Virus record (IMG/VR): IMGVR_UViG_3300043436_001565
Location: 1-43,425 of that record
Direction: 5' to 3' (one strand)
From: a virus
Length of the DNA: 43,425 bases
The notes below the pieces were generated by a model. The model did no database searches. It saw only the letters and a program-made list of their open reading frames with translations, and was not told where the DNA came from. The first letter of the stretch is position 1; each line of letters opens with the position of its first letter. This document shows positions 1,505 through 31,952 of the stretch, piece after piece. The position numbers and the translations under genes are program-made.

Positions 1505-3140
1505 CCTAGTACGCGAGCGTTCAGCGCAGATCAAAGATTTCTCAGGTGGTCTAAACAACTACTGGGACCCGTCATCTATTGCCCAGAACGAAGTACCGTT
1601 CCTGCAGAACCTAGAGTTCTCGCCTACTGGTGCGCTTGCGTCAAGACCCCCGATTGCGGAGTTAGACGTAACCTTTCCTGAAGCTAACGTCTTTTTCAAC
1701 TTACTTGGCTACTACATAGAAGAAGACGGCGATCGCTTCGGTGTATTTACCTCGCCAACTAAAACTTACGTTTACAACATAGCCACTGAAGTTTGGACAC
1801 AGATCTGGACGCATCCTGCTGCTGACTTTGTTCAGTATCAGGGCTACCTAATCATGTGTCGCATAAACGGCGCGGGTGCTTATTGGGGTCCTAACGGCGC
1901 TCCAGGCTATGACTCCTCGACTGGCCTATGGACTATAGCTGGCTCAAACACTTCAACAATTGCAACCATGCCTGCTGGCCGTGGTATCGAGCTTCACCAA
2001 GAGCGTCTATTCTTGTTCGGCCCGCTAAACACCGCAACCCAGTCCGTAATGTACTGGTCTAACATCGCTGGTGAAGTTGAGTCATTCCCAGGTCAGGACT
2101 GGCGCTGGTGGGATGCTAACAATGGCTTTACCTCTGTAAACAGTGGAGACGGTCAATGGATCACTGGCCTAGTCTCTGGTTACAACGAAGTTACTGTGTT
2201 TAGAAACGCATCTACTTACCGCTTTACTTTCTCTGGTCTGCCTGAAGGCGGAACCATGGCAAAGATCCAAGAAGGTATCGGCGCTGAGAACCAAAACTGT
2301 ATCGCTTACTATGAGAATGGGCTTATCGTTCTTAGCGGAGATCAGCTTTACGCTTACTACAACGGAAACTTTACATCGCTAAATGACCAGAAGGTTCGCT
2401 TTGAAGAGCAACCATTTGCTGCAAACCTAAAGATCAGATACGCCGTATCTGTAATCGGATCTCGCGCTGTAGTTCACTTTGGCGGCACGCTATACGTATT
2501 CCAGATCAAAACAAACACTTGGTCTATCTGGCTATCCGACACTGAGTTTGCTAAGTGTATTGAAGTTCCAACACCTCCAAACAACATCGGTGAAACTAAA
2601 TCCGCGCTCGCTGTGTCTGGTAGCTCAAGCGCTGCTAAATGGAAGCTTTACTCAATCGTGGATCACAGCCACACCTCCACTGGATCTGAAGACATCAAGT
2701 GCATTCTGCGTACAAGAATCTTTGACTTTGAAACACCTAACGAATGGAAAAGACTGTACTGGTGGGCTGCCGATGTCATGGCTGCTGGCGCAATTACTGC
2801 AAAGGTTATCCCAGCCTCAGTGTTCTACACGGATGCTACTTGGGAGGATGTCAGCCTAGACTTTGAGGGTGATCAAAGGTTTGTTGCTTGGGATGACCCA
2901 GACGCTACTTGGGATAACCCTACAGACACCGAATTCCAGGGTATTACTACCGAAATTAACAACGGCTTCACCTACAGGCAGCGCAACAGCCTGAAACTAG
3001 ACAACGGAGTGCGTTTCCGTAGGGTATACTTTGAATTGTATCTTGAGTGCGATGGCAGGATAGATACATCTCCAGCGCAGATCTTTAGCATCACTCCGAT
3101 GATCGGAATGAAGGCTAAGACGTCAGATAGGATTACCTAA
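1497..3140 (+). CDS. Tail tube/nozzle protein (T7 gp12-like)
   Basis: This 547-aa, largely beta-structured protein is rich in aromatic residues and asparagine. It begins R-S-A-Q-I-K-D-F-S-G-G-L-N-N, the G-G-L-N signature often seen at the start of podoviral tail tubular B or nozzle proteins. Repeating W/Y-rich strands suggest a beta-propeller body, known for T7 gp12. I choose the ATG at 1497, which overlaps the connector stop by eight bases. A TTG 24 bases upstream is possible, but neither has a clear ribosome site, so coupling is likely. It acts in the virion as the DNA exit channel beneath the connector. Confidence 0.7.
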   Translation: MSNLVRERSAQIKDFSGGLNNYWDPSSIAQNEVPFLQNLEFSPTGALASRPPIAELDVTFPEANVFFNLLGYYIEEDGDRFGVFTSPTKTYVYNIATEVWTQIWTHPAADFVQYQGYLIMCRINGAGAYWGPNGAPGYDSSTGLWTIAGSNTSTIATMPAGRGIELHQERLFLFGPLNTATQSVMYWSNIAGEVESFPGQDWRWWDANNGFTSVNSGDGQWITGLVSGYNEVTVFRNASTYRFTFSGLPEGGTMAKIQEGIGAENQNCIAYYENGLIVLSGDQLYAYYNGNFTSLNDQKVRFEEQPFAANLKIRYAVSVIGSRAVVHFGGTLYVFQIKTNTWSIWLSDTEFAKCIEVPTPPNNIGETKSALAVSGSSSAAKWKLYSIVDHSHTSTGSEDIKCILRTRIFDFETPNEWKRLYWWAADVMAAGAITAKVIPASVFYTDATWEDVSLDFEGDQRFVAWDDPDATWDNPTDTEFQGITTEINNGFTYRQRNSLKLDNGVRFRRVYFELYLECDGRIDTSPAQIFSITPMIGMKAKTSDRIT

Positions 3141-14923: not shown

Positions 14924-15130
14924 ATGAGAAGAGTATCACTGAATCCAATCACACTTGATTGGATAAACGCTGAGCTTGAAGAGGCTGAGCAAATACAGGC
15001 CAAGTTTGAGGCTGAATGTGTGGCAACTGACTGGGCTGAGCTAGACATCGAAATTGATTACCGCGAGCAGTGCGGTTGGGTGTCAGCCATGAAATACATC
15101 AAGCAACAGATGACAAAGGAGGGCAACTGA
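14924..15130 (+). CDS. Small helical protein, unknown
   Basis: This 68-aa protein has a central acidic amphipathic helix (L-E-E-A-E-Q-I-Q-A-K-F-E-A-E) and a C-terminal segment G-W-V-S-A-M-K-Y-I-K-Q-Q. I choose the ATG at 14924 because GAGAGGGTAAAAAG directly precedes it, the same leader type used by other early genes. An ATG at 14888 lacks such a site. The stop overlaps the next start (ATGA). The function is unknown. Confidence 0.65.
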   Translation: MRRVSLNPITLDWINAELEEAEQIQAKFEAECVATDWAELDIEIDYREQCGWVSAMKYIKQQMTKEGN

Positions 15131-15438
15131 TGACCAAGATAGCCAATGATATCGAAGCACATCGTGCCTTCTGGGCTGACATAGCACGTGAGAACGGCTG
15201 GTATGAAGAGCCGTTTTATGTTCAGGTCTGGCGTGACATGGACGGCACAATCACCGACAGCGTATCCACACGAGCATTGACCCAAGACTGGGAGATTGAG
15301 GTCAAGACCTTTATCTGCCCAGCTTGCGATGAAGATAAGCCGTATGAGCAGGGACATGGTGACTGCCGTGCCTGTGATGACTGCTGTGAATGCGAATGGG
15401 GAGATGACGGCAAGATTATTTATTGCCACCCTTACTAG
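15130..15438 (+). CDS. Cysteine-rich zinc-binding protein
   Basis: This 102-aa protein has an N-terminal part (residues 1-55) with W-x-D-M-D-G-T-I and a C-terminal cysteine cluster: C-P-A-C, then C-R-A-C-D-D-C-C-E-C and a final C near the end. That is enough ligands for two zinc sites. The start follows AAGGAGG and overlaps the previous stop as ATGA. It is the first of the many Cys-rich small proteins of the early block. The role is unknown; DNA, RNA or protein binding are all possible. Confidence 0.65.
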   Translation: MTKIANDIEAHRAFWADIARENGWYEEPFYVQVWRDMDGTITDSVSTRALTQDWEIEVKTFICPACDEDKPYEQGHGDCRACDDCCECEWGDDGKIIYCHPY

Positions 15439-15499
15439 AGTTACCCCCTAACCGCCCTGAGCATGGCGTAAAACTGCTCTATAAAACTGCCCGTGCTAA

Positions 15500-15560
15500 C
15501 TAAGGGAATGAGTGGAATGTGATGTGATGTTTGACACTTGCATTGCTAATCAACTAAACT
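15500..15560 (+). promoter_or_regulatory. Promoter of the clamp-like gene with upstream repeat element
   Basis: A consensus -35 TTGACA (15531-15536) is followed after 18 bases by TAAACT (15555-15560). Just upstream, 15500-15528 holds a 29-bp element (core GGAATGAGTGGAATGTGATG) that recurs with two mismatches at 16331-16359. The gene at 15605 follows a leader ending GAGAGGGTATCAAAATG. Confidence 0.65.
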
Positions 15561-15604
15561 ACTAACACCAGCAACACTGCTGGCCAAAATGAGAGGGTAT
15601 CAAA

Positions 15605-16216
15605 ATGGAGACATCAACAGCAGTAAAGGTTGCACTACCGCTAAAGGTTGCTAAGCAACTAGCAAGTCTGGCAGTGTTTGCTGAGACTAAGAAGGGCACC
15701 ACGCCAGCACTACAAGTAGTTAGATTAACATTCACCGCTGGCAGTGTTAGTGGTGTTGCTACTGATAGATACTGCATTGCAAAAGCTACATTCACCACTG
15801 ATAGCACTGATGAAGGTGTTATGTATCTTGATCAAGCTGGTGCAAAATGGATCACTGGCCTAGTTGCTAAGCCAGCGGCAATGGTTGAATTCGCAACGGG
15901 CCAAAATGGCTTAGAGCTCTCATACCAGCAATTCAGTGATTACTTGAGTATGCACTATTGCGAACGCTACTCAGCCAATTATCCCGCCGTTGAGACGCTA
16001 TTCGACGGCCTAGAGGTTGGAGGGGTTGAGAGGTTAAGTCTCAATGTCTCAATGCTAGCCAAGCTAGCTAAGCTGATTGGTGATGAAGGTAAGAAGTTAG
16101 ATAGCACTTGGGAATTCACTTACCACACTGGCCCAAACCCTAACCGCCCAAACCCTATTCTTGCTAAGAATAGTGCTTACCAAGTTTGGATCCAACCAGC
16201 ACTGCTATCCCGCTAA
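15605..16216 (+). CDS. Sliding-clamp-like protein (DnaN-related, compact)
   Basis: This 203-aa protein resembles parts of the bacterial DNA polymerase III beta clamp. A strand-rich region ends in V-S-G-V-A-T-D-R-Y-C-I-A-K-A (T53-D54-R55-Y56, like the A-T-D-x-x-R segment of DnaN). The C-terminus, V-W-I-Q-P-A-L-L, is like the closing strand of clamps (V-M-P-M-R-L). It is far shorter than DnaN (about 366 aa), so it may be a reduced clamp that forms a higher oligomer. With no phage polymerase visible, it may load or divert the host polymerase. A clear promoter precedes it and a terminator follows. Confidence 0.6.
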   Translation: METSTAVKVALPLKVAKQLASLAVFAETKKGTTPALQVVRLTFTAGSVSGVATDRYCIAKATFTTDSTDEGVMYLDQAGAKWITGLVAKPAAMVEFATGQNGLELSYQQFSDYLSMHYCERYSANYPAVETLFDGLEVGGVERLSLNVSMLAKLAKLIGDEGKKLDSTWEFTYHTGPNPNRPNPILAKNSAYQVWIQPALLSR

Positions 16217-16229
16217 ACAACCCTAGAAG

Positions 16230-16266
16230 CCCCGTCAGTGCCATCATGGTGCTGGCGGGGTATTCT
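16230..16266 (+). terminator. Hairpin terminator after the clamp-like gene
   Basis: A 14-bp stem with three G-T pairs (arms 16230-16243 and 16247-16260) and a 3-nt loop is followed by TATTCTT. It lies 14 bases after the stop codon. The T-tract is imperfect, so its strength is uncertain. Confidence 0.7.
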
Positions 16267-16444
16267 TATGCCCGTGATACCGCTGTGGCTTGTACGGGGC
16301 GTACAAGGCTTGCAAAATTGGCTAAACCCTCTAAGGGAATGAATGGAATGTGATGCGATCTGCCCTGCCAGCGGTATAATGCGGGGCTAACCCTGCCAAT
16401 AGTATCAATTTGATAGACACCGCTAGCAGGGCAGGAGAAAAATT

Positions 16445-16528
16445 TTGAGTGAATGCGGGGCAGGATCGCCAGCGAAAAAGCCTAATTTTTTTGATAACGA
16501 TTTGATAACGCCGCTAAAACCCGCATAA
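16445..16528 (+). CDS. Possible 27-aa leader peptide
   Basis: A TTG start lies seven bases after a consensus AGGAG (16433-16437) and opens 27 codons to a TAA. The product would begin S-E-C-G-A-G-S-P-A-K-K-P. TTG starts with a good ribosome site occur elsewhere here (17428, 19004, 23548), which makes this plausible. The frame is short and lies within a structured region, so it may be chance. Confidence 0.3.
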   Translation: MSECGAGSPAKKPNFFDNDLITPLKPA

Positions 16529-16631
16529 CAGCAGGGCAACACGCTAAAAAATAGATTAGGTGAATGTGGGTCTAGCCTGCTAATCTGCTAAACAGCTAGA
16601 TCAACCAACTAGCTAAAGAGAGGGTATCAAA

Positions 16632-16943
16632 ATGTATTTCAATAACACCGACATCAAGAGCGACATCTTAGATCACTGGGAACAGTTGGCAGAAATGGCA
16701 GATCCTAACGATCTAATAAACGAATTGGCAGAGTCTGCTTGCCCCGTTTATTATTCGGACATCCTAAAGGACTGGCAAGAAATGCCTAGCGAGTATAACG
16801 ACAGTTGGCAAGAAAACGGAATACCTACAACAGGGGAAACCACAATTTTTAGCCTTATGAGTTGGGACTTGTATTTCTATTACGAAAGGCAATACCAGAC
16901 TATCTTCAGTGAGATCAAAATGGACAAAGAGGAGGCTAACTAA
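16632..16943 (+). CDS. Small acidic protein, unknown
   Basis: This 103-aa acidic, tryptophan- and tyrosine-rich protein contains D-H-W-E-Q-L-A-E-M-A-D-P-N-D-L-I, resembling small phage proteins of unknown function. Its leader GAGAGGGTATCAAAATG is identical to that of the clamp-like gene at 15605. It opens a run of about eleven overlapping small genes that ends at 18765. The stop overlaps the next ATG by one base. Confidence 0.65.
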   Translation: MYFNNTDIKSDILDHWEQLAEMADPNDLINELAESACPVYYSDILKDWQEMPSEYNDSWQENGIPTTGETTIFSLMSWDLYFYYERQYQTIFSEIKMDKEEAN

Positions 16944-17146
16944 TGGAGATCACTCCAACCCGCAGGATCACTTGTAGAGAATGTGCCACCGAAAAGGGCA
17001 GGCTGACTTGGTTGCCCTGTGGTGAACATCACTTGATTATCCCCGCCGAATTGTGCGGACACGAACACAACAGCGTGATCTTTATACACAACGGGACAGG
17101 TGTATCCTGCCACGATTGCGGAACAATAACCACATTAGAGCTATAA
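16943..17146 (+). CDS. Zinc-ribbon microprotein
   Basis: In this 67-aa protein, C-R-E-C near the N-terminus and C-H-D-C near the C-terminus could form one zinc ribbon. C and H residues between them (L-P-C-G-E-H-H and L-C-G-H-E-H) could hold a second metal. It is coupled to the gene before it by TAATG and preceded by GAGGAGG. The function is unknown. Confidence 0.65.
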   Translation: MEITPTRRITCRECATEKGRLTWLPCGEHHLIIPAELCGHEHNSVIFIHNGTGVSCHDCGTITTLEL

Positions 17147-17159
17147 GAGAGGATCCAAA

Positions 17160-17330
17160 ATGAACAGCACAACCAAAATTGGGCTACGCCCAACAGAATA
17201 CAACGCACTAATTCACGCTATTTGGCGTATTGATCAATTGATAGACAATGAGATCCTTACGGATGAACAGCGGGCAACCCTACGGCGTGACAGGGAGGCC
17301 TTACAGGCTCTCTTTATTAGGATCGCATAA
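17160..17330 (+). CDS. 56-aa helical protein, unknown
   Basis: This 56-aa, mostly helical protein (L-I-H-A-I-W-R-I-D-Q-L-I-D, then Q-R-A-T-L-R-R-D-R-E-A-L) is possibly a coiled-coil dimer. It is preceded by GAGGATCCAAAATG, one of several near-identical start cassettes in this block. Its stop overlaps the next start (TAATG). No cysteine and no recognised family. Confidence 0.55.
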   Translation: MNSTTKIGLRPTEYNALIHAIWRIDQLIDNEILTDEQRATLRRDREALQALFIRIA

Positions 17331-17431
17331 TGATTGAGATCGAATGCCCTAACCATGAGGGAGGTTTTGATTGTTCGCCGTTTTGCGGAATTTGCGAGGG
17401 CAACCAGTATTACGAGGAGGATCAAGATTGA
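17330..17431 (+). CDS. 33-aa zinc-knuckle microprotein
   Basis: This 33-aa protein has cysteines at positions 6, 15, 19 and 22 plus a histidine at 9. It ends E-E-D-Q-D, the last codons doubling as the ribosome site and spacer (GAGGATCAAGATTG) for the next gene. It is coupled on both sides by 1- and 3-base overlaps. The close fit into the operon supports it as a real gene despite its size. Confidence 0.5.
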   Translation: MIEIECPNHEGGFDCSPFCGICEGNQYYEEDQD

Positions 17432-17772
17432 ACAACCTAGAAAATTACGATTTCAATGTATACGGGGACAGCGATACGACAATTTGCCTAACCGCTTACC
17501 CCTTGAAATGGACTTATGACGAGTCCTACGACGGCAACTACCGAATGGAATGCGATTATTCTGCCGATAGCTGTATCTCATTGAGATTGGAATACCCCGA
17601 ACACCTAAAGGAGATTGAACACCTCCTAAAGGATCTATACATAAATCACTATCCGCTTACCGATTATGACGATTGGTTAGGTGTAAGTGACTTAGAGGCA
17701 GAACAGCCACCATTGATACAAAAATTCTTAGACGAATTACCAGAAAACAAACTAGAAAGAGAGAAAGCATAA
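17428..17772 (+). CDS. Acidic protein, unknown (TTG start)
   Basis: This 114-aa acidic protein has a beta-rich N-terminal half (Y-D-F-N-V-Y-G-D-S-D-T-T-I) and a helical C-terminal half (H-L-K-E-I-E-H-L-L-K-D-L). The best start is the TTG at 17428, seven bases after GGAGG and overlapping the previous stop as TTGA. A frame start 57 bases upstream would overlap the preceding gene without a ribosome site. The family is unknown. Confidence 0.6.
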   Translation: MNNLENYDFNVYGDSDTTICLTAYPLKWTYDESYDGNYRMECDYSADSCISLRLEYPEHLKEIEHLLKDLYINHYPLTDYDDWLGVSDLEAEQPPLIQKFLDELPENKLEREKA

Positions 17773-17954
17773 TGAAAAAATACACATTGCCCTTTACCGA
17801 AACCCAGAGAGGTTGGTATGAAATTGAGGCCAACAGCCTAGAGGAGGCTAAGCAGATCGTCATTGCTGGCGATTTTACAGAGAACACCGAACCCAACTAC
17901 AAGGACGGGATCACCGAATACGACGAAAACGATCTAATTGAGGAGGAAGAATAA
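17772..17954 (+). CDS. Small acidic protein, paralogue of the next gene
   Basis: This 60-aa protein has strand-rich sequence (Y-T-L-P-F-T-E-T) followed by I-E-A-N-S-L-E-E-A-K-Q and a very acidic tail. It shares its layout with the next protein: an aromatic beta strand, A-x-N/S-x-E-x-A helix start, then an acidic end. The two probably arose by tandem duplication. It overlaps neighbours by one base on each side. The function is unknown. Confidence 0.6.
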   Translation: MKKYTLPFTETQRGWYEIEANSLEEAKQIVIAGDFTENTEPNYKDGITEYDENDLIEEEE

Positions 17955-18154
17955 TGCCAGAGTACGAATTTTGGTACAGCGAAACTTACACCTACAAAGC
18001 GTGGTTTCGAGCAGAAAACAAGGAACACGCCATTGAAAAGTTGGAGGCCGTGTTTCAAGGGGACATTGACCTTGAAGACGATCTATCAGGCTTTGGGAAA
18101 AAAAGTAAGGGTTATGAAATTGACCTTGACCCACTATCAATTGAGGAGATCTAA
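17954..18154 (+). CDS. Small acidic protein, paralogue of the previous gene
   Basis: This 66-aa protein reads Y-E-F-W-Y-S-E-T-Y-T-Y-K-A-W-F-R-A-E-N-K-E-H-A near the N-terminus, matching the pattern of the 60-aa protein before it. Its ribosome site, GAGGAGGAAG, encodes the glutamate tail of that protein. Unknown role, likely a small protein-binding domain. Confidence 0.6.
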   Translation: MPEYEFWYSETYTYKAWFRAENKEHAIEKLEAVFQGDIDLEDDLSGFGKKSKGYEIDLDPLSIEEI

Positions 18155-18249
18155 TGACTTGGGAATGCTCACTTGACCGCCATAAAGAATGCCCTAAAGA
18201 AGAACAGTATCTATGTTCTTGCGATTGCCACCCAACGGAGGAGATGTAA
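18154..18249 (+). CDS. 31-aa cysteine-rich microprotein
   Basis: This 31-aa protein has five cysteines (positions 5, 13, 21, 23, 25) and three histidines, ending L-C-S-C-D-C-H-P. That C-x-C-x-C-H tail is seen in small zinc-binding phage proteins. It is coupled by TAATG overlaps on both sides, and its last codons (E-E-M) provide the GGAGGAG site for the next gene. Confidence 0.5.
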   Translation: MTWECSLDRHKECPKEEQYLCSCDCHPTEEM

Positions 18250-18434
18250 TGAGTAACTACCAGATTACCGCTAAGCAAGTTGATACTGGCTTGCTACTTG
18301 AAACAACGCTTGACGGGACCAAGTATGGGCAACACTACCCACACAAGGACACCGAACAGGCAACAGAGGCCTTTGAGGCATTGATCCGCAAATACCAGAC
18401 ACAAGGCGATTTAGCCGTAATGAGAGGCGACTAA
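18249..18434 (+). CDS. Small protein, unknown
   Basis: In this 61-aa protein, a beta hairpin-like start (Y-Q-I-T-A-K-Q-V-D-T-G-L-L-L) is followed by a helix (A-T-E-A-F-E-A-L-I-R-K-Y). The ATG at 18249 is chosen because GGAGGAGATGTA precedes it and it overlaps the previous stop. Unknown function. Confidence 0.6.
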   Translation: MSNYQITAKQVDTGLLLETTLDGTKYGQHYPHKDTEQATEAFEALIRKYQTQGDLAVMRGD

Positions 18435-18631
18435 TGCAAGACAGAACTATGGAAGTGCGTATGTATTTCAGCAGTGGCAACCGCATAACAATTGAGATCC
18501 AAGAAAAAGAGTGGGTAGTGCTACGCCACGAGATGACGGAGATACCTGAGATAATTGAGGTAGAGATCCGTGAGGCAGGCAGATACATTTGGTCTGTCCT
18601 TGATCGAGACGAATTGGAGGTGGCACGATGA
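18434..18631 (+). CDS. Small beta-rich protein, unknown
   Basis: This 65-aa protein with alternating hydrophobic strands (R-I-T-I-E-I-Q, then I-I-E-V-E-I-R) suggests a small beta barrel. The start overlaps the previous stop by one base, and the stop overlaps the next start as ATGA. No motif is recognised. Confidence 0.6.
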   Translation: MQDRTMEVRMYFSSGNRITIEIQEKEWVVLRHEMTEIPEIIEVEIREAGRYIWSVLDRDELEVAR

Positions 18632-18765
18632 TCTGCTTAGCGTGCGAATGGAATGCCCCGTATGTCATACAAGCGTCGTTTTGCCCTGAATGCGGAGAAG
18701 ACGGACATCTAAGACTTGATGATCGCTTCTTCACCCAAAAGGCAAAAAACGCAAAATCCAACTAG
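18628..18765 (+). CDS. 45-aa zinc-ribbon microprotein
   Basis: This is a classic minimal zinc ribbon: C3-x2-C6 and C19-P-E-C22 separated by 12 residues, with a basic C-terminal tail (K-A-K-N-A-K). GGAGGTGGCACG precedes the ATG, which overlaps the previous stop. It ends the overlapped cluster that starts at 16632. Possible DNA or RNA polymerase binder, but unproven. Confidence 0.6.
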   Translation: MICLACEWNAPYVIQASFCPECGEDGHLRLDDRFFTQKAKNAKSN

Positions 18766-18778
18766 CAACCTAAAGTAG

Positions 18779-18830
18779 ACACCTACTCACTGCTATTTTA
18801 CTCCTGAGTTATTTAGCAGTGAGTAGGTGT
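18779..18830. promoter_or_regulatory. 17-bp perfect inverted repeat (terminator or binding site)
   Basis: Arms 18779-18795 and 18814-18830 are perfectly complementary (acacctactcactgcta) around an AT-rich 18-base loop. It lies 13 bases after the last gene of the cluster. There is no T-run after it, so it may be a factor-dependent or two-way terminator. It could also be a protein-binding site, since its CTACTC/GAGTAG core recurs at 18946-18980. Confidence 0.6.
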
Positions 18831-18945
18831 AATTCTTAAGAGTTCAATTGGAAAATGGCATTTTGAGCAAAATAAAGGCCAAAACACCTGATCAATTTAG
18901 GCAATTGAGATCAAAAACAGCTAAACTGACCAAATCAAATACAAT

Positions 18946-18980
18946 GAGTAGATGTCAGCATCTCAGATGCTATTCTACTC
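18946..18980 (+). promoter_or_regulatory. Promoter with overlapping nested inverted repeats
   Basis: Outer arms gagtaga (18946-18952) and tctactc (18974-18980) enclose inner arms agcatct/agatgct (18957-18963, 18965-18971). TGCTATTCT at 18968-18976 is an extended -10 placed right for the gene at 19004. The overlap suggests an operator, perhaps for autoregulation by the HTH protein encoded there. Confidence 0.45.
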
Positions 18981-19003
18981 TCAACTAACTAAAGGAGATA
19001 ACT

Positions 19004-19609
19004 TTGAGTCATTATGACCCAATTTATGGAGAGCTTTTGACCTCCAGAGAAGTATCAGATCTAACTGGTTTCACCATGAACCAGCTACGCAATCAACGCC
19101 TGCGAGCAGACACATCCCCATTGCCATTCGTGCGACAGGGAGGGACATCGTGGTATCGCAAGGATGACATTGACATCTGGCTTGAAGAAAACGGCACAAT
19201 TGAATACCAGTATGTGAGAGTCCCGAACGCCAAGTCAGCACCACTACGCAACACCACTGTTGATTTTGAGCATAAGAAGAACCTTGAAGAACTGGCTCGG
19301 ATCACTACTCGCAACGCTTGGACAAAGTGGTATACATGGTTTACTGATCACAGTGGATGGAAAGATCCATACGGCGATACCCGCATCTGGCAAGTTGAGC
19401 TTTACAAGCAGGCAACTGGTGAGGATCTAGATGAACTTTACCCACAGGGCGAATTCTACAAAATGCGAACCGAAGACCCACAGCGTTTCTGGCCTAGCAT
19501 TACCTACGCTATGCGTAAAGCAGTAGCACAGGTGCGAGGCTATGAGGTAAGCGATGAAGAGATCATTGCAGGGCCAGTAGGCGAAGTGCCACCAAGCAAG
19601 CTGGACTAA
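19004..19609 (+). CDS. Excisionase/MerR-like helix-turn-helix protein
   Basis: In this 201-aa protein, residues 10-60 form an excisionase-type winged HTH: L-L-T-S-R-E-V-S-D-L-T-G, then R-N-Q-R, F-V-R-Q-G-G, W-Y-R-K-D-D-I-D-I-W-L. The remaining 140 residues are tryptophan-rich and unassigned. The start is a TTG with AAAGGAG six bases upstream. It has its own promoter region with inverted repeats (18946-18980). There is no integrase, so it is more likely a transcription regulator or replication initiator than an excisionase. Confidence 0.7.
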   Translation: MSHYDPIYGELLTSREVSDLTGFTMNQLRNQRLRADTSPLPFVRQGGTSWYRKDDIDIWLEENGTIEYQYVRVPNAKSAPLRNTTVDFEHKKNLEELARITTRNAWTKWYTWFTDHSGWKDPYGDTRIWQVELYKQATGEDLDELYPQGEFYKMRTEDPQRFWPSITYAMRKAVAQVRGYEVSDEEIIAGPVGEVPPSKLD

Positions 19610-19842
19610 TGGCTAAGCTACCCCAGAGACTCGTAGAAGCCTTATCTAAGACAGGATGGCAAGAGATCAACAGCACGGCTCAGGTATCCAAATACCGACA
19701 GCCAGATCGCGAACTCTACATCCAACCAAGCACCACCCACAAGGGTCGCTATGCCATTGTGGTTGAGTATCCTGATCGCCCTGGACTAACGGACGGCATG
19801 GATCTAGACACCCTTGTCAAATACTTGACAAAGGATAACTAA
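19609..19842 (+). CDS. Small protein, unknown
   Basis: This 77-aa protein has W-Q-E-I-N-S-T-A-Q-V-S-K-Y near the N-terminus, then strands and a C-terminal helix (D-L-D-T-L-V-K-Y-L-T-K). It is coupled to the HTH gene by TAATG overlap, so the two may act together. Family not recognised. Confidence 0.6.
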   Translation: MAKLPQRLVEALSKTGWQEINSTAQVSKYRQPDRELYIQPSTTHKGRYAIVVEYPDRPGLTDGMDLDTLVKYLTKDN

Positions 19843-19887
19843 CAGTGCTAAAAAGGCATTGTTCAACTAAAAGAGAAGAGGATACAA

Positions 19888-20259
19888 ATGAACACCACTG
19901 ATAGAGAGCTCATTGATCAGGCTAAAGCTGCTTTAGTTGCTAAGCCTAAAGAGTCAAAGAGCAAGACAAAAGTAGCTGAGCCAACAGATCCAACGCTGGC
20001 TAATGAGCTACTTGCTAAGCGTAGCTCGGTCTACGATGCCAAGAAGAAGCTCGAAGCAGAGCTAGCAGAGATTGACTCGATCATCAAGGACATGATCGGC
20101 ACCAACGATGAGCTACAGATCCACGGCTCAAAGGTTGCCAGTATTTCCAGATGGCGTGAAACCTCGCTGGTCACTGACACAGTGAAGGAAACATTCCCGA
20201 TCACTGATTACCCAGAGCTTTACAAGAGAACCAACAAGTCAAGGCTAACGATCCACTAA
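19888..20259 (+). CDS. Coiled-coil protein resembling nuclease-associated tails
   Basis: In this 123-aa protein, a lysine-rich linker leads into a coiled coil (about residues 42-72, L-E-A-E-L-A-E-I-D-S-I-I-K-D). A compact beta part follows (I-H-G-S-K-V-A-S-I-S-R-W) and the protein ends Y-K-R-T-N-K-S-R-L-T-I. That order, coiled coil, a strand with W, then R-x-L-x-I, resembles the C-terminal tail of YqaJ-type phage exonucleases, here as a separate protein. It may assist the nuclease at 23548. The resemblance is weak and based on pattern only. Confidence 0.5.
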   Translation: MNTTDRELIDQAKAALVAKPKESKSKTKVAEPTDPTLANELLAKRSSVYDAKKKLEAELAEIDSIIKDMIGTNDELQIHGSKVASISRWRETSLVTDTVKETFPITDYPELYKRTNKSRLTIH

Positions 20260-20492
20260 TGCCTAGCGTTAGGGAGAAGTGTGCTTGCGGTGCAGAACTT
20301 GAGATAAGCGACGCACCTCTCCCTAACGCACTTGCCTCGATCAATTCGTGGCGAAATAAACATAAGTGCAAACCATTAGAGCCTGAAATACAGGCTGTGC
20401 ACGGCTCGCCAGGTGAACTGGAGAGATCAATAGGCTTCACCGCTGGCGATGTGCCAGCAAAAGAATACGACCCGTGGGAGGATCAAAAATGA
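20259..20492 (+). CDS. Cysteine-containing small protein
   Basis: This 77-aa protein has C-A-C-G near the N-terminus and a later W-R-N-K-H-K-C, giving a C-x-C...H-x-C metal site around a short helix. The C-terminus, E-D-Q-K, is encoded by the start cassette GAGGATCAAAAATG of the next gene. It overlaps its neighbours by one and four bases. Unknown role. Confidence 0.6.
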   Translation: MPSVREKCACGAELEISDAPLPNALASINSWRNKHKCKPLEPEIQAVHGSPGELERSIGFTAGDVPAKEYDPWEDQK

Positions 20493-20596
20493 GCGTTCAG
20501 TATTGCTACGAATGCGTAATGCCAACACTAACCAAGTCCGATTGGACTTGCGATTACTGTGAAAACTTCAACACATTCGAGGAGGATCAAAAATGA
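20489..20596 (+). CDS. 35-aa zinc-ribbon microprotein
   Basis: C6-Y-E-C9 and C21-D-Y-C24 form a minimal zinc ribbon; the C-terminus is E-E-D-Q-K. That tail again encodes the ribosome site for the next gene and matches the tail of the previous protein. The repeated tail-plus-cassette suggests gene shuffling by recombination at the cassette. Confidence 0.55.
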   Translation: MSVQYCYECVMPTLTKSDWTCDYCENFNTFEEDQK

Positions 20597-20814
20597 AGTT
20601 TGATAAGTGGCTCAAGAAGGGCCTAGATAACAACTGGTGTGGCCCAGCTGTGTGTTACACACACGATGGCTTACCAACCAGCGAAGCAGAAGATGAAGAT
20701 TTTGAGTATGGTGGCGATCCATGCCTACACATCATCAGACTCTACGAAGATGAAGATCAGAAGAAGTCGGTTGAATTCAACCACTCAGCATCCGTATGGA
20801 GGATAAGAAGATGA
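20593..20814 (+). CDS. Conserved small actinophage-type protein (C-G-P-A-V-C-Y-T-H-D-G)
   Basis: This 73-aa protein contains W-C-G-P-A-V-C-Y-T-H-D-G-L-P-T-S, a motif I associate with small proteins common in actinobacterial phages. An acidic stretch and D-P-C-L-H-I-I-R-L follow. It may bind metal through the cysteines and histidine. It overlaps neighbours by four bases each (ATGA). The function is not known. Confidence 0.65.
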   Translation: MKFDKWLKKGLDNNWCGPAVCYTHDGLPTSEAEDEDFEYGGDPCLHIIRLYEDEDQKKSVEFNHSASVWRIRR

Positions 20815-20954
20815 CCTATGTATGGATACAAGAAAGTGCAGGATCACTACGCTATGTGGATGACATCTACATCGCACCATGCCAGAAGTGTGGCAAGCGA
20901 CTAAGTGTTTGCGAGTGTAAACAAGAAGAAAAGGAAGAGGACAATGCCAGTTGA
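20811..20954 (+). CDS. 47-aa cysteine-rich microprotein
   Basis: A beta-rich start (Y-V-W-I-Q-E-S) is followed by C-Q-K-C-G and C-E-C-K, then an acidic tail (E-E-K-E-E-D-N). The four cysteines suit one zinc ion. The start overlaps the previous stop as ATGA, and its tail overlaps the next start by 11 bases. Unknown function. Confidence 0.5.
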   Translation: MTYVWIQESAGSLRYVDDIYIAPCQKCGKRLSVCECKQEEKEEDNAS

Positions 20955-21114
20955 GAGGTGGGACAACTGTGAGTATTGCGGTAATAACATACTGCTATGG
21001 TCAAACGGTAAATGGTATGACGGTAGCAATCGTATCGAATGCTCACAAGTAGACAATCAAGGACAACACTTACCAATTTCACAAACAATAGAAGAGAAAG
21101 TAGAGAGCAAATGA
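20944..21114 (+). CDS. 56-aa zinc-binding microprotein
   Basis: C-E-Y-C-G-N-N-I-L-L-W and a later I-E-C-S-Q give at least three cysteines; the C-terminal helix is charged. The ATG at 20944 follows GGAAGAGG, and longer in-frame forms would overlap the previous gene needlessly. The stop overlaps the next start as ATGA. Confidence 0.55.
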   Translation: MPVERWDNCEYCGNNILLWSNGKWYDGSNRIECSQVDNQGQHLPISQTIEEKVESK

Positions 21115-21293
21115 CAATACAACCACTATGTGGCTACTGCGGTATGACATTAGAAGACTGCGGGAGCTTAGAAGAATGCAACTACAACAACCCATCGTAT
21201 TGCTCAGTGTGTGACGGATCATGCGGATGCGACTCGCTATACGAGAACTATAAAGATGGATTGGTGGCTGATTACTATGACGGCAAAGAATGA
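21111..21293 (+). CDS. 60-aa very cysteine-rich protein
   Basis: The 60-aa product holds nine cysteines: C-G-Y-C-G, then two spaced C, then C-S-V-C-D-G-S-C-G-C. It could bind two zinc ions and has an acidic end. The start at 21111 overlaps the previous stop. Function unknown. Confidence 0.6.
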   Translation: MTIQPLCGYCGMTLEDCGSLEECNYNNPSYCSVCDGSCGCDSLYENYKDGLVADYYDGKE

Positions 21294-21294
21294 C

Positions 21295-21471
21295 ATGTGG
21301 CCCTGCACTAAGTGCAGAAAAGAATTACCTGCTGATGATGCAATGATCGTTCAAGACCGCATCTATTGCGAGTTCTGTGCGATCATCGAGGGCGGTTTCT
21401 ACGCCAAGCCAGAAGAACATCTACCAGATGAGTATTACCTGTGGCTTGAAGACCGTGATAGCAATGACTGA
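21295..21471 (+). CDS. 58-aa zinc-ribbon protein
   Basis: W-P-C-T-K-C-R-K-E-L-P and D-R-I-Y-C-E-F-C form a C-x2-C...C-x2-C ribbon. An acidic, aromatic tail follows. I choose the ATG at 21295, one base after the previous stop. An in-frame ATG at 21277 would add six residues and overlap by 17 bases, and neither has a strong ribosome site. Unknown function. Confidence 0.55.
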   Translation: MWPCTKCRKELPADDAMIVQDRIYCEFCAIIEGGFYAKPEEHLPDEYYLWLEDRDSND

Positions 21472-21601
21472 GTGTTTTTGGTGCGGTGAGGTGTTTGACA
21501 ATATGGATCACGATACCTGCCCTAGTTGCGCCAGAGACACCCACACCAAAGAGATAACAATAATTCAAGGAGAGAATGATGACAGCGAAGAAGATCTTTG
21601 A
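21464..21601 (+). CDS. 45-aa zinc-ribbon microprotein
   Basis: C-F-W-C-G-E-V-F and C-P-S-C form a minimal zinc ribbon with H-D between them; the C-terminus is acidic (E-N-D-D-S-E-E-D-L). It overlaps its neighbours by 8 and 23 bases. Its end contains the AAGGAG site that serves the WhiB gene. Confidence 0.55.
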   Translation: MTECFWCGEVFDNMDHDTCPSCARDTHTKEITIIQGENDDSEEDL

Positions 21602-21872
21602 CTCGTTCGAGCGAATAAGACAATGGCAACACCTAAACGATTTGATCGAAGAAGTAGGTGGCCAAATACCATGTCGCCAAGCACCAGATCTTTATTTCCC
21701 AGAGATTGGTGACGGCACAGCTGCATCAACGGCCAAGATGGCTAAGAAGGCCTGCCTCGGTTGCGAGGTAGTAAAAGAGTGCGGCGACTACGCCGTCAAA
21801 TACAAAGAACAATACGGTATTTGGGGTGGCATGAGCTACAACGACCGCAAAGAGATTTGGAGTAGAAAATGA
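21579..21872 (+). CDS. whiB: WhiB-family transcription regulator
   Basis: This 97-aa protein has the full WhiB signature: C32, then C59-x2-C62-x5-C68 for a [4Fe-4S] cluster, and G80-I-W-G-G followed by a charged C-terminal helix. WhiB proteins occur only in Actinobacteria and their phages. They act by binding the primary sigma factor, and a phage copy may redirect host transcription or block superinfection. I prefer the ATG at 21579 (six bases after GGAG) over 21576. It closes the zinc-protein run and overlaps the next gene by four bases. Confidence 0.88.
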   Translation: MTAKKIFDSFERIRQWQHLNDLIEEVGGQIPCRQAPDLYFPEIGDGTAASTAKMAKKACLGCEVVKECGDYAVKYKEQYGIWGGMSYNDRKEIWSRK

Positions 21873-22414
21873 TACAAAGGTACGAAAAGCATGACCCACG
21901 CTTTACCGCTTGGATCGAAGGACTCAACGATGCGGTTGAATTCTTGGATGACCAGCTATACAAAGCTGACGAAGTAGCATCATGGAAAGATCTACAAGCA
22001 GTGATCACCGAACTATCAGTAACAATTGCAATGGCTTATGAAGAGAGGCTAACACCGAATGACAATCTACGAAGAGATACTGTATCCCTATCAACAACAA
22101 GCATCCAAGAGGATAGCTTCACAGCGGAGGATCTTGCTAGCAGATCAGCCTGGACTTGGCAAAACTTTAGAAGTCTTGGCCAGCTTCGAGCTAGCGGACT
22201 ATCTGAACCCGATCGACTCGCACGCGATGCTGATACTGACACCAGTTGTGAATGCTCGCACGGCATGGATCGATACTATACAGAGGTATTTATTACCGAA
22301 GTACCCGCACCTAAAAGTAGTGGACCTATCATCAGGCAGCGCCGTAAAGAAGAACAAGACACTAAGTTTGGCACTCGCAGAAGAGGGTACCCATCCTTTG
22401 GTAGTGGTCGCTAA
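21869..22414 (+). CDS. Small protein whose frame runs 356 bases into the helicase gene
   Basis: The first 64 residues look like an ordinary helical protein (F-T-A-W-I-E-G-L-N-D-A-V-E-F-L, then V-I-T-E-L-S-V-T-I-A-M-A-Y-E-E-R). The start overlaps the WhiB stop as ATGA. Unlike its neighbours the frame does not end near the next start at 22059. It continues another 117 codons in the +1 frame over the helicase N-terminus, giving serine-, arginine- and proline-rich sequence. Either the stop has been lost or the overlap is real overprinting. The N-terminal part is much more secure than the tail. Confidence 0.5.
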   Translation: MIQRYEKHDPRFTAWIEGLNDAVEFLDDQLYKADEVASWKDLQAVITELSVTIAMAYEERLTPNDNLRRDTVSLSTTSIQEDSFTAEDLASRSAWTWQNFRSLGQLRASGLSEPDRLARDADTDTSCECSHGMDRYYTEVFITEVPAPKSSGPIIRQRRKEEQDTKFGTRRRGYPSFGSGR

Positions 22415-23561
22415 TCACGACGCATTAGCAACTACCAAAGCTGGGCCTCGCATCCCTGCATTGTTTGAGCCTTACTGGTCTGCCATTGCAATCGATGAGT
22501 CGCACCTAGTGTTACCGATCGTGAAGCCTGGTACTAAGACTAACTTCTGGCGTGGACTAGAGAAGCTACAAGTGCATGACAATCAAGCGTCACTAAAGAT
22601 AGCTATCTCTGGTACGCCTGATCGTGGCAAGTTAGAAAATAGATACGGCACTTGGAAATTTATTGCACCGAGTGATCTACCTAAGACTCACTGGGGTTGG
22701 CTTGAAGATAAGTTCAATGTGTATGATCAAAAAGTTTCTCGCACTCGCACAGTAAAACGTATCGGCTCACTCAAGCGACCATACGATTGGGCACAGCTTG
22801 ATAAAGAGATGGTGATCCGTCGCACTAAAGAAGAAGTGCTACCACAATTGCCAGCGAAGTCGTATAACTTTATTGAGCTTGCGATGACTCCAGACCAGAA
22901 AGAACTTTACCGCAACGCTGAACGTGAAGCTATGAATGATCCATCACCGACATCGCTATTGGTGTTTAGCACCATTGCTAGACAGCTCGCAACATACAAC
23001 GGCGATCACTCTAACAAAATGGAATGGTTGCTCGGTTGGCTTAGCGAGCGCGGCTACATGGAGGATCTCGGCCTGAATGGAAAAGTAGTAATCGCATCGC
23101 AATACGTCAAGACTCTCAAATGGGCTAAGGCACAGCTATCCAAGCACGGTGTCCAGGCTGAGCTGCTCACGGGAGATCTAACTGCAACACAACGTGCAGA
23201 TGTGCAAAATCGTTTCCAGGACCCGAACGACCCACTGCGTGTCGTTCTGCTATCTGGCTCGATGGGTGTGGGTATTACTCTCGACACGGCTGATGATCTA
23301 ATCATGCTTGACTTACCATACGACCCAGACAAGTTAGAGCAGATCGAGGACCGCATCCATCGTGCATCAAACATGCACAAGGTGTCTATCTGGCACCTAT
23401 TATCTAAGAACTCAATTGACATGGCTATCGCAGAAGTCTCAACGACACGCCGATTGATCACTCGGGCTTTGCTTGATGGCTCAAGAGGTATAGACTTTAG
23501 CCGCAAGGTAGTCCAGCACTTGACTGGCAAGACAGAGGAGACCAAACTTGGCGACGATTAA
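22059..23561 (+). CDS. SNF2-type DEAD/DEAH-box helicase
   Basis: This 500-aa superfamily 2 helicase shows an N-terminal Q-like region (Y-P-Y-Q-Q-Q-A), motif I D-Q-P-G-L-G-K-T (29-36), motif II D146-E-S-H149, motif III S-G-T-P, and motif VI Q428-I-E-D-R432-I-H-R435. Motif V, G-M/V-G-I-T-L, is also present. The full set makes it an ATP-dependent DNA translocase. Phage members of this family often sit beside a recombination nuclease, as here (23548). It may remodel replication or recombination intermediates. The start overlaps the frame at 21869. Confidence 0.85.
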   Translation: MTIYEEILYPYQQQASKRIASQRRILLADQPGLGKTLEVLASFELADYLNPIDSHAMLILTPVVNARTAWIDTIQRYLLPKYPHLKVVDLSSGSAVKKNKTLSLALAEEGTHPLVVVANHDALATTKAGPRIPALFEPYWSAIAIDESHLVLPIVKPGTKTNFWRGLEKLQVHDNQASLKIAISGTPDRGKLENRYGTWKFIAPSDLPKTHWGWLEDKFNVYDQKVSRTRTVKRIGSLKRPYDWAQLDKEMVIRRTKEEVLPQLPAKSYNFIELAMTPDQKELYRNAEREAMNDPSPTSLLVFSTIARQLATYNGDHSNKMEWLLGWLSERGYMEDLGLNGKVVIASQYVKTLKWAKAQLSKHGVQAELLTGDLTATQRADVQNRFQDPNDPLRVVLLSGSMGVGITLDTADDLIMLDLPYDPDKLEQIEDRIHRASNMHKVSIWHLLSKNSIDMAIAEVSTTRRLITRALLDGSRGIDFSRKVVQHLTGKTEETKLGDD

Positions 23562-25074: not shown

Positions 25075-27561
25075 GTGAATTCGCCATCAGAATTCAAAGA
25101 GCTACTGAGCCGCTTAGGACGCTCTGAAGAAGATAACGTAACAATCTGTTATCAATCAGCCAAACAAAAATTTACTGCCAAGACCATCAAGGTTGATCTA
25201 GCAGACTCAGTTGTCGCCGCACTTGATGCACTCGATAACAACATCTGGTTCGAGATCAACCCGTCAAGTGTGAACGGCAGAGCTACAGCTAGAGACATCG
25301 ATCAGCTAGCCGCTGTATACATCGACATCGATTACAAAGACACGGGCGCAGGATCTGTCAAGGCTGCCAGGGATTTCGTGGATCTAATCACCGACTTGAT
25401 CGGTGTAGGTCCGACCGCAACTGTTTACTCAGGCCACGGCATTCAGCCTTACTGGGCTATCGAAGATGATCACATTGATAACGCATTAGCATCTGGCGTA
25501 CTAAATCGCTGGGGACTATTCTGCAAGTTCTTAGGTGCATCACAAGGTATTCAACTTGACAGCGTGTTTGACCTGCCCCGCATCTTTAGGGCTCCAGGCT
25601 CTCGCAACTTTAAGGATGCAGTAAACCCTGCGCCAGTAATAACTATGTTGCACCAGAACTGGCGACCAATCACTATTGACGAGATCAATGATGTGCTTAT
25701 CGCTCACGGGATTACAAGTGAGTCATCGCTGCCAGAAGAGTATGAGTTAGTATCCAGCGCAAACGATTGGGAGTTCTCGGCACATGATTGCCAGTTCACC
25801 CCAACACTTTATGCGGGTGTACGCCCAACTAACGGCGCACCTAAGTCAAGACACGGCTGGCTACTGCAGCAGTTGGTGTTGATCAACTCTGCGCACCGCA
25901 ACGGTTGCGTTACGAAGGACACTGCGGATGAACTACTAAAGCTAGTCGCTGAGCGTTTCCAGTACTTCTTGACACTTGAGCCTAAGCGTGAGATGCACCA
26001 GGGCGAGGTTCAAGGGGCTAATAAGTGGGCCATTGCGAGGGTTGAGACCTTCTCGCACGATAAGTTGCAGCAAGAACTAAGAAGGCACCAGCACTCAGAT
26101 TTTTTTACAGGCGACCCGAGCAGCGTCCTTGGGGAGCCATCCGCTAATCAAGATTTTGATTTCAATGAGTTAGTTGAGATCTATCGGGCTAGCTACGGTA
26201 CATATGGACGCACTGACTCGGCTAATGCACGCCGCTTGGTTTACTTCAACCAAGGCCACTACAAGTTCGTACCTGATCTTGGATGGTTCCGCTGGGATGG
26301 CGGTAGATTTGTCCCAGACAAAGAGAAAGCACTATTTCAAGCAGCGATCGATGCTGCTGAATTTATCGTAAAGACCCCTGCAAACGATGATCAGGTCAAA
26401 TGGGCGCAGGCTTCAGTCAACAAAGACAGGATACAAAATGCCATCGTTATCGCAGGAACAGATCCAGAAGTTCAAGTCCAAGCTCTCGACATGGACACCC
26501 AGCCAAATGACTTATGTACGCCAGCTGGCATCGTCAACCTACAAACTGGTGAGCTACGCCCAGCGGATCGCAGGACCGATTTGGTTACGAGGCAAACGAC
26601 AGTTTCTCCGTCTGAAGTGGCAACTCCTTTGTGGTCTGGCTTCCTTAGAGATGTCATCCAAGACACTGAAAGAATTGAATACTTGCAAGAATTGCTTGGG
26701 GCATCTCTCTTCGGAGACTCGCGGTTCCACGTGCTCCCAGTGCTTGTTGGCTCAGGAGCCAACGGTAAGTCCACTCTCCTAGATGTAGTTGCAGGGATCT
26801 TGGGTGACTATGCTGCCACAATGCCTGAGAACTTCTTGCTTGATGCCAGCAACACAACACACCCTACTGAGATCGCTAGGCTACGAGGAGTTCGCTTTGC
26901 TATGGCTAGCGAGACCAGACCAGATGGAAAGTTCAATGAGTCGAGAGTAAAGATGCTTACTGGTGGCGACACGCTATCGGCTCGCTTTATGAACCAGAAC
27001 TTCTTTGACTTCAAGCCTACTCACACCCTGTTCTTGGCGGTGAACCACTTGCCAGCTGTAAAGTCTGGTGGTGACGGTTTCTGGAGAAGACTTCGTAAGA
27101 TCGACTTCAACATCACCGTGCCTGCTGAGAAGCGCCGTGAGAACTTTGCACAGCTAATGATCGAAACCGAAGGCCCAGGCATCCTGCGCTGGATCATTGA
27201 TGGTGCAGTCCGAGTCACCACACAGGGCTTTAAGGAGCCTGACTCAATCAAGCTTTCCACGTTGACTTACCGTCACGAGGAAGATCACATCGCCAAGTTT
27301 ATTGACGAACGTGTTGTGATTGCTTCAACTGGTACAGCTACAAAGACCAGCGTATTCAACGCTTACCGTGATTGGTGTATTGATAACGGTGAGAAGTACA
27401 TAACCCAAAACGCTCTTGCTAGAGAGATCAGGTCCCGACTAAACGTAGGCGAAACTGACGGCGCAGGCATTAGGATGTTCACAGGCATAGAACTTGTGGA
27501 CTTGGCCCCTAAAGCTGACTCTATGATCGACAAGGAAGAACGCGATGAGTACTGGAGATAA
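25075..27561 (+). CDS. Primase-polymerase/SF3 helicase fusion
   Basis: This 828-aa protein starts at GTG (AAAGGA upstream). The N-terminal AEP prim-pol domain shows D84-I-D86-Y-K, S119-G-H-G then P-Y-W, and later D-L-P-R-I-F-R-A-P-G-S-R-N. The C-terminal D5/P4-type SF3 helicase shows Walker A G-S-G-A-N-G-K-S-T (559-567), a S-E-T-R acidic region and motif C L-F-L-A-V-N657. A winged-helix end follows. It would unwind DNA and prime, perhaps extend, new strands. In the absence of a family A, B or C polymerase it is the central replication protein. Confidence 0.88.
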   Translation: MNSPSEFKELLSRLGRSEEDNVTICYQSAKQKFTAKTIKVDLADSVVAALDALDNNIWFEINPSSVNGRATARDIDQLAAVYIDIDYKDTGAGSVKAARDFVDLITDLIGVGPTATVYSGHGIQPYWAIEDDHIDNALASGVLNRWGLFCKFLGASQGIQLDSVFDLPRIFRAPGSRNFKDAVNPAPVITMLHQNWRPITIDEINDVLIAHGITSESSLPEEYELVSSANDWEFSAHDCQFTPTLYAGVRPTNGAPKSRHGWLLQQLVLINSAHRNGCVTKDTADELLKLVAERFQYFLTLEPKREMHQGEVQGANKWAIARVETFSHDKLQQELRRHQHSDFFTGDPSSVLGEPSANQDFDFNELVEIYRASYGTYGRTDSANARRLVYFNQGHYKFVPDLGWFRWDGGRFVPDKEKALFQAAIDAAEFIVKTPANDDQVKWAQASVNKDRIQNAIVIAGTDPEVQVQALDMDTQPNDLCTPAGIVNLQTGELRPADRRTDLVTRQTTVSPSEVATPLWSGFLRDVIQDTERIEYLQELLGASLFGDSRFHVLPVLVGSGANGKSTLLDVVAGILGDYAATMPENFLLDASNTTHPTEIARLRGVRFAMASETRPDGKFNESRVKMLTGGDTLSARFMNQNFFDFKPTHTLFLAVNHLPAVKSGGDGFWRRLRKIDFNITVPAEKRRENFAQLMIETEGPGILRWIIDGAVRVTTQGFKEPDSIKLSTLTYRHEEDHIAKFIDERVVIASTGTATKTSVFNAYRDWCIDNGEKYITQNALAREIRSRLNVGETDGAGIRMFTGIELVDLAPKADSMIDKEERDEYWR

Positions 27562-31733: not shown

Positions 31734-31952
31734 TTAGTTATCTAGCTCAAAGACTTCTTCGTTAGCTTCAAACTTAAACTTTCCTGATTGATACATGTAT
31801 TCTTGGACTCTACCCCAAAAAATCTGAGCCTCTTCCTGCCTAGATTTTTCAATCATAAAAGCATTAAATGCTTCTTGGCTTACTTCTGATGCACCTTGAC
31901 AGGTGGCACATTCTGTGTTGTCTGGTCCTGCGCATGCTGGGCATATTTTCAT
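31734..31952 (-). CDS. Small zinc-binding protein
   Basis: This 72-aa protein has C-P-A-C-A-G and C-A-T-C-Q-G near the N-terminus, giving a four-cysteine (DnaJ-like C-x2-C-x-G) ribbon. A charged helical rest follows. It sits between two tail-protein genes, an odd place for such a protein, and may be a chaperone for the repeat-rich fibres. That idea is speculative. Confidence 0.6.
   Translation of the reverse strand: MKICPACAGPDNTECATCQGASEVSQEAFNAFMIEKSRQEEAQIFWGRVQEYMYQSGKFKFEANEEVFELDN

Follow-up and report, generated by a model that had tools for sequence, protein, structure and literature searches.

A run of tiny cysteine-rich phage genes and a portable module that occurs free or fused in other phages

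Tiny phage genes are usually dismissed as unclassifiable. What, then, is to be made of a run of about twelve of them, each encoding a small protein with paired cysteines? Such a run lies at positions 15130 to 21601 of IMG/VR virus record IMGVR_UViG_3300043436_001565, the full 43,425 bases of which are referred to here as the window. These are genuine phage accessory microprotein genes under purifying selection, and one of them is the stand-alone form of a module of ~24 residues, here called CPNH, which recurs, free or fused, in phages with unrelated packaging genes. As to function, we lean towards a role of the products as acidic binding modules stabilized by metal. Genes are named below by their start positions and related loci by number (L001 and so on).

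Layout and conservation of the run

The region from ~14.5 to 27.6 kb of the window is a single rightward block of mostly very small genes. It runs from a helix-turn-helix (HTH)-like gene at 19004 through a 123-residue gene at 19888, the cysteine-rich cassette, and a WhiB gene at 21579 to an SNF2-type helicase gene at 22059, followed by a nuclease-like gene at 23548 and then a primase-like gene at 25075; the labels of the last three come from reading the sequence and from the order of genes in annotated phages whose terminases are related. A sequence-only reading had listed twelve overlapping or abutting frames flanked by HTH and WhiB genes. All twelve open reading frames were found where it placed them, most of them overlap, and the flanking genes are those at 19004 (a weak match) and 21579; 21277 is a possible alternative start for 21295. 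Across the region, 17 of 27 junctions overlap by exactly 1 or 4 nucleotides, which suggests that the overlapping frames of the run are probably translationally coupled. Lengths range from 31 to 102 residues, so that the range of 31 to 78 given for most of the proteins stands with 15130 (102 residues) as the exception. The bare C-x2-C...C-x2-C arrangement ascribed to many of them is typical of only 7 of the 12. The other five differ, with C-x-C...C in 20259, C-x2-C plus one Cys in 20944, a C/H cluster in 18154, C-x2-C...C-x-C in 20811, and C-x2-H...C-x3-C-x2-C in 17330. A further member of the run, 20593 (73 residues, 3 Cys, conserved in L004), was absent from that list.

The density of such genes had been called striking, and the counts agree. 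When small proteins with at least three cysteines and a pair were counted with the same gene caller throughout, the window contained 3.0 such genes per 10 kb compared with 0 to 1.6 in nine reference phages (1.61 compared with 0 to 0.70 under a stricter criterion), a small set of our own choosing that serves only as a rough yardstick. C-x2-C pairs number 19 in the twelve proteins together; 5000 residue shuffles gave 4.2 on average and never more than 13.

Related phages were searched for the same sets with the helicase and the 19888 family, and the gene block was found in 23 related contigs. Between the window and its relatives, ten of the twelve frames showed purifying selection, with ratios of nonsynonymous to synonymous differences (pN/pS) of 0.09 to 0.52; 20489 has a relative with 77% identity, and 18154 has a weak relative only. 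Cysteines were kept in nearly all comparisons, the exceptions being 15130 and 21111, in which whole Cys modules are exchanged or lost. The lack of conservation that the sequence-only reading had allowed for was thus not observed. Isolate phages yielded nothing in a near-identity search, and tblastn with five run genes, 19888, and the double-module protein of L098 gave no convincing match in 50,697 isolate phages. The frames could still be near-neutral passengers, maintained through recombination and of little consequence to the phage, and turnover is indeed high: 18154, 20489, 20593, and 20944 have no match in the close relative L001, and the second-module Cys ligands of 21111 are lost in some relatives. 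Because purifying selection and Cys retention argue against this explanation, as does the strong conservation of the CPNH module across phages with unrelated terminases, we regard it as very improbable. The small Cys genes and the regulator gene that ends the cassette are as follows.

15130..15438, plus strand: 102-residue protein, N-terminal domain and C-terminal Cys cluster (CPAC..GHGDCRACDDCC..YCHPY)
16943..17146, plus strand: 67 residues, 6 Cys (C-x2-C ... C-x2-C); 84% identical in L001, pN/pS 0.16, 6/6 Cys kept; weak S27e/RING-type profile matches
17330..17431, plus strand: 33-residue stand-alone portable CPNH module (CPNHEGGFDCSPFCGICEG); 69 distinct module proteins
18154..18249, plus strand: 31-residue C/H cluster (C-x4-H-x2-C ... 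C-x-C-x-C-H); weak motif-level relative in L086 (E 0.003), the weakest-supported of the twelve
18628..18765, plus strand: 45-residue two-knuckle protein (M.C..C.W...FCP.CG); relatives in L001, L027-L031, and L047, 4/4 Cys kept; weak double-zinc-ribbon matches
20259..20492, plus strand: 77 residues, C-x-C ... H-x-C; seven-member alignment, pN/pS 0.13-0.29, 3/3 Cys kept
20489..20596, plus strand: 35 residues, C-x2-C ... C-x2-C; the 77% identical relative is in L130
20593..20814, plus strand: 73 residues, 3 Cys; 74% identical in L004, pN/pS 0.19
20811..20954, plus strand: 47 residues, C-x2-C-G ... C-x-C; pN/pS 0.09-0.21, 4/4 Cys kept
20944..21114, plus strand: 56 residues, C-x2-C plus one Cys; relative in L021, pN/pS 0.30
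21111..21293, plus strand: 60 residues, knuckle 1 and an optional module CSVCDGSCGCDxxY; second module kept in L002, L003, and L007, its cysteines lost and its tail kept in L001, L004, and L005
21277..21471, plus strand: 64 residues (58 if the start is 21295), C-x2-C-x17-C-x2-C, with a LIM/treble-clef-like model
21464..21601, plus strand: 45 residues, C-x2-C ... C-x2-C (TECFWC...CPxC); pN/pS 0.13-0.29, 4/4 Cys kept; family in 12 loci in a collection-wide scan
21579..21872, plus strand: WhiB-family regulator at the cassette end (Pfam Whib, E 1.3e-15)

The CPNH module occurs free and fused

The core of the CPNH module, CPxHxGxFDCxPFCxxCxG, comprises 19 of its ~24 conserved residues. A collection-wide scan with four copies gave 83 relatives; the 80 best of these, from 79 loci, were retained. 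In all loci examined, at least 69 distinct proteins bear the core, nearly all of them from environmental virus loci; 30 are stand-alone (29 to 49 residues) and 39 are fused, with the partner on the C-terminal side in 25, on the N-terminal side in 12, and on both sides in 2. Of the 19 core columns, nine do not vary and three others hardly vary, a conservation that is somewhat overstated because the scan and the filter pattern require several residues, although not the invariant G at position 6. The copies compared had a median pN of 0.14 and a median pS of 0.92. No match to the module was found in Pfam, PHROGs, or NCBIfam, and no convincing match in PDB or the isolate phages; the libraries searched contain no unit of comparable size that occurs among the small genes of actinophages both as a gene on its own and as a domain fused to many partners. 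A literature search on such phage micro-genes found nothing specific.

The window-type terminase was present in 5 of 50 tested records with the module, three of which are close relatives of the window. A WhiB gene, the usual actinophage marker (PMC6802176), was present in 38 of the 50 and in the window. A narrower pattern, scanned against 84,980 bacterial and archaeal genomes, detected two contigs, both from Microbacteriaceae bins (one Aquiluna) and both crowded with phage-like small genes. We infer that the carriers are phages of aquatic Microbacteriaceae and relatives, an assignment that is putative for the window itself.

The partners of fused CPNH fall into 26 clusters, about a dozen of which also occur without the module, including the 16632 protein and the 15130 N-terminal domain of the window. 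Since single-occurrence partners could reflect a wrong start codon, weight was placed on those with an independent copy. One partner carries CPNH at opposite ends (L053/L056 compared with L110). In L001, the closest relative, the 15130 N-terminal domain bears a CPNH C-terminus in place of the Cys cluster of the window, and this C-terminus nearly duplicates both the 17330 protein (Z 18.7) and a free-standing 29-residue gene in L017 (Z 21.7). In L098, a CPNH module is followed by the C-terminal Cys cluster found in 15130 of the window. Exchange extends beyond CPNH, as the second half of 21111 (L002 copy) reappears at the end of the 20811 protein of L030 (Z 10.5), and also in L031 and L032. Portability as a trait of every run gene was rejected, since the GHGDC Cys cluster of 15130 occurs in two loci only. 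The gene at 16632-16943 belongs to an acidic 103-residue family that weakly matches ocr-like anti-restriction in PHROGs (E 0.0016); the family occurs in other related loci and is fused to the CPNH module in L069.

Several sequence pairs show the free and fused states side by side. In L117, partner and module are two genes in different frames that share TAATG, whereas in L087 and L119 they form one fused frame. L118/L052 and L123/L079 are similar split/fused pairs, the former supported by just 24 shared partner residues. The pairs point to a simple route of fusion and fission via stop and frame changes. Stop loss or gain between overlapping neighbors, together with gene shuffling, would leave CPNH free in one phage and fused in another. 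The pairs thus illustrate how overlapping micro-genes turn into fusion proteins.

As a control, extensions of at least 25 residues were counted in five families of the region (17428, 17954, 19609, 19888, and 20259). None was present in 70 distinct proteins, compared with 34 of 65 for the module. These families were seen mainly in close relatives, and 17954 was therefore scanned across the whole collection; none of its 15 members, which comprise 13 intact genes and the two halves of a split gene, was fused, compared with 34 of 65 for the module. The Fisher p-value of 9e-5 is indicative only, given the smaller size and greater internal similarity of the control family and the non-independence of copies. 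In L153, a 17954-family gene around position 3001 seems to be split into two frames. These results strongly support the earlier suggestion of modularity: modules move between genes, unlike a control family from this operon.

Phage proteins are known to shuffle domains, most markedly in other classes (Smug et al. 2023, PMC10684548). The present case is alike in that fragments are common to otherwise unrelated phage proteins, and differs in that a module of ~24 residues moves among tiny genes and often stands alone.

Charge, fold, and possible roles

All twelve proteins are acidic (isoelectric point 4.1 to 6.0), 17330 contains no Lys or Arg, and the net charge of every CPNH copy is -2 to -7. This acidity speaks against nucleic-acid binding, and the notion that Cys-rich means DNA-binding was set aside for that reason. 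It bears directly on the possibility that the products are nucleic-acid-binding regulators, small zinc fingers that, in the manner of Ogr/Delta or Com, would control transcription or translation. Regulators are known among the short zinc fingers of phages, the small Cys-paired proteins are encoded beside HTH and WhiB regulators, and an ogr/delta-like zinc finger is annotated in ctEqG8, a phage whose terminase is related. On the other hand, no Pfam or NCBIfam model matched any of the twelve above its cut-off, and no Ogr/Delta or Com match was obtained for ten proteins at E ≤ 1 or for 20944 at E ≤ 0.1 (18154 lay outside the Pfam scan). Such regulators are, in our judgment, unlikely. Ogr/Delta, Com, and Lar/Ral are small phage Cys-rich proteins acting on gene expression or host defense, and the twelve differ from them in lacking a profile match, except for a weak Lar-like one in 20944 (E 0.065).

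The label "zinc ribbon" was only partly upheld. Weak zinc-ribbon or LIM-type matches occur in some genes, the best zinc-ribbon matches (NOB1, DZR, and Zn_ribbon_8) all being below the curated cut-off, but the Cys/His patterns differ, one protein is modeled as a treble clef, and the most widespread module is C-x2-H...C-x3-C-x2-C. The label is too narrow for the run. The AlphaFold2 model of 21277 has four short strands and a helix, with a block-mean predicted local distance difference test (pLDDT) of 74 to 83 over residues 11-40. LIM domains topped its Foldseek list at E 0.17 and above, below significance, and the Pfam LIM score of 18.9 bits did not reach the gathering score of 22.9. In strand/helix order and in this weak profile match the model resembles LIM/treble-clef fingers, although only one finger is covered, and 21277 is predicted with modest confidence to be a LIM-like treble clef. 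A model of 21111 was discarded (pLDDT 55). The knuckle proteins probably bind zinc.

A different metal center is conceivable for CPNH, which might use its C-x2-H and Cys ligands to hold an iron-sulfur cluster and might share a circuit with WhiB. WhiB proteins are iron-sulfur proteins, a WhiB gene ends the cassette here and accompanies the module in most tested records, and the first half of CPNH matches the Rieske ligand loop CPxHxGxFD (E 0.01). That match is short (12 to 14 residues) and of borderline significance, the second Rieske ligand loop, C-x-H, is absent from the module, and other run genes resemble zinc knuckles in weak profile searches. We give redox or iron-sulfur modules little credence.

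A protein-binding unit fits best because there is no enzyme signature, the proteins are tiny and acidic, non-ligand residues are conserved, and the partners are many. We therefore consider it somewhat probable that the products are adaptors or inhibitors: acidic mini-folds held by a bound metal, most likely zinc, that would act early in infection as non-catalytic binders of host or phage protein machines. The suggestion of adaptors or inhibitors in the sequence-only reading agrees with the acidity, the lack of a catalytic signature, and the promiscuous fusions. Several points weigh against it. No library searched assigns a function to any of the twelve, and acidity is shared by non-Cys small genes of the region and is not specific to the modules. 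Of the two structure models, one could be used, at modest confidence, and the best solved-structure match of CPNH is to a short stretch of Rieske iron-sulfur ferredoxins. For the proteins of the run, metal binding and zinc as the metal are both only inferred, and early expression is deduced from gene position alone. The partners are mostly of unknown function and indicate no pathway; those scanned in Pfam and PHROGs were almost all without known function (L084 matches DUF7447 and L123 an unnamed PHROG).

A more specific and doubtful version is that CPNH serves as a portable tag for docking, a short epitope with bound metal that would recognize a single conserved target in aquatic actinobacteria. 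It is equally tentative that phages would show the epitope alone as a competitor or weld it to varied effectors for recruitment. Its reuse on so many partners makes the module a convenient handle, as identifying what a single 30-residue protein binds could account for dozens of uncharacterized proteins in phages of aquatic actinobacteria. Stand-alone zinc finger micro-proteins are found in haloarchaea, in Haloferax volcanii (PMC6562870) and as Brz of Halobacterium (PMC2253796). They are likewise small stand-alone proteins built on zinc finger motifs; they differ in being encoded by archaeal chromosomal genes, whereas free-or-fused portability is a trait of the phage module, and the likeness drawn here is one of description.

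Neighboring genes

Rfam and tRNA scans were empty, a PADLOC scan found nothing, and promoter-like sites were fewer than in shuffles. The count of terminator-like sites, mostly on the minus strand, was not used as evidence. Outside the early block, positions 31734-31952 on the minus strand encode a 72-residue two-pair Cys protein with no relative among the loci examined. The gene at 15605-16216 weakly matches a family of DNA polymerase processivity factors (E 8e-5). The 123-residue gene at 19888-20259 is present in all related contigs and weakly matches the C-terminal part of a RecE-like family (E 3.8e-5).

Downstream of the cassette, a 181-residue frame at 21869-22414 overlaps the start of the helicase gene (22059-23561) by ~355 nucleotides in another frame. 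In relatives with 46 to 49% helicase identity, this frame closes within 65 nucleotides, whereas in nine relatives with 62 to 94% identity it stays open for 353 to 380 nucleotides past the helicase start. The overlap may be a long dual-coding region.
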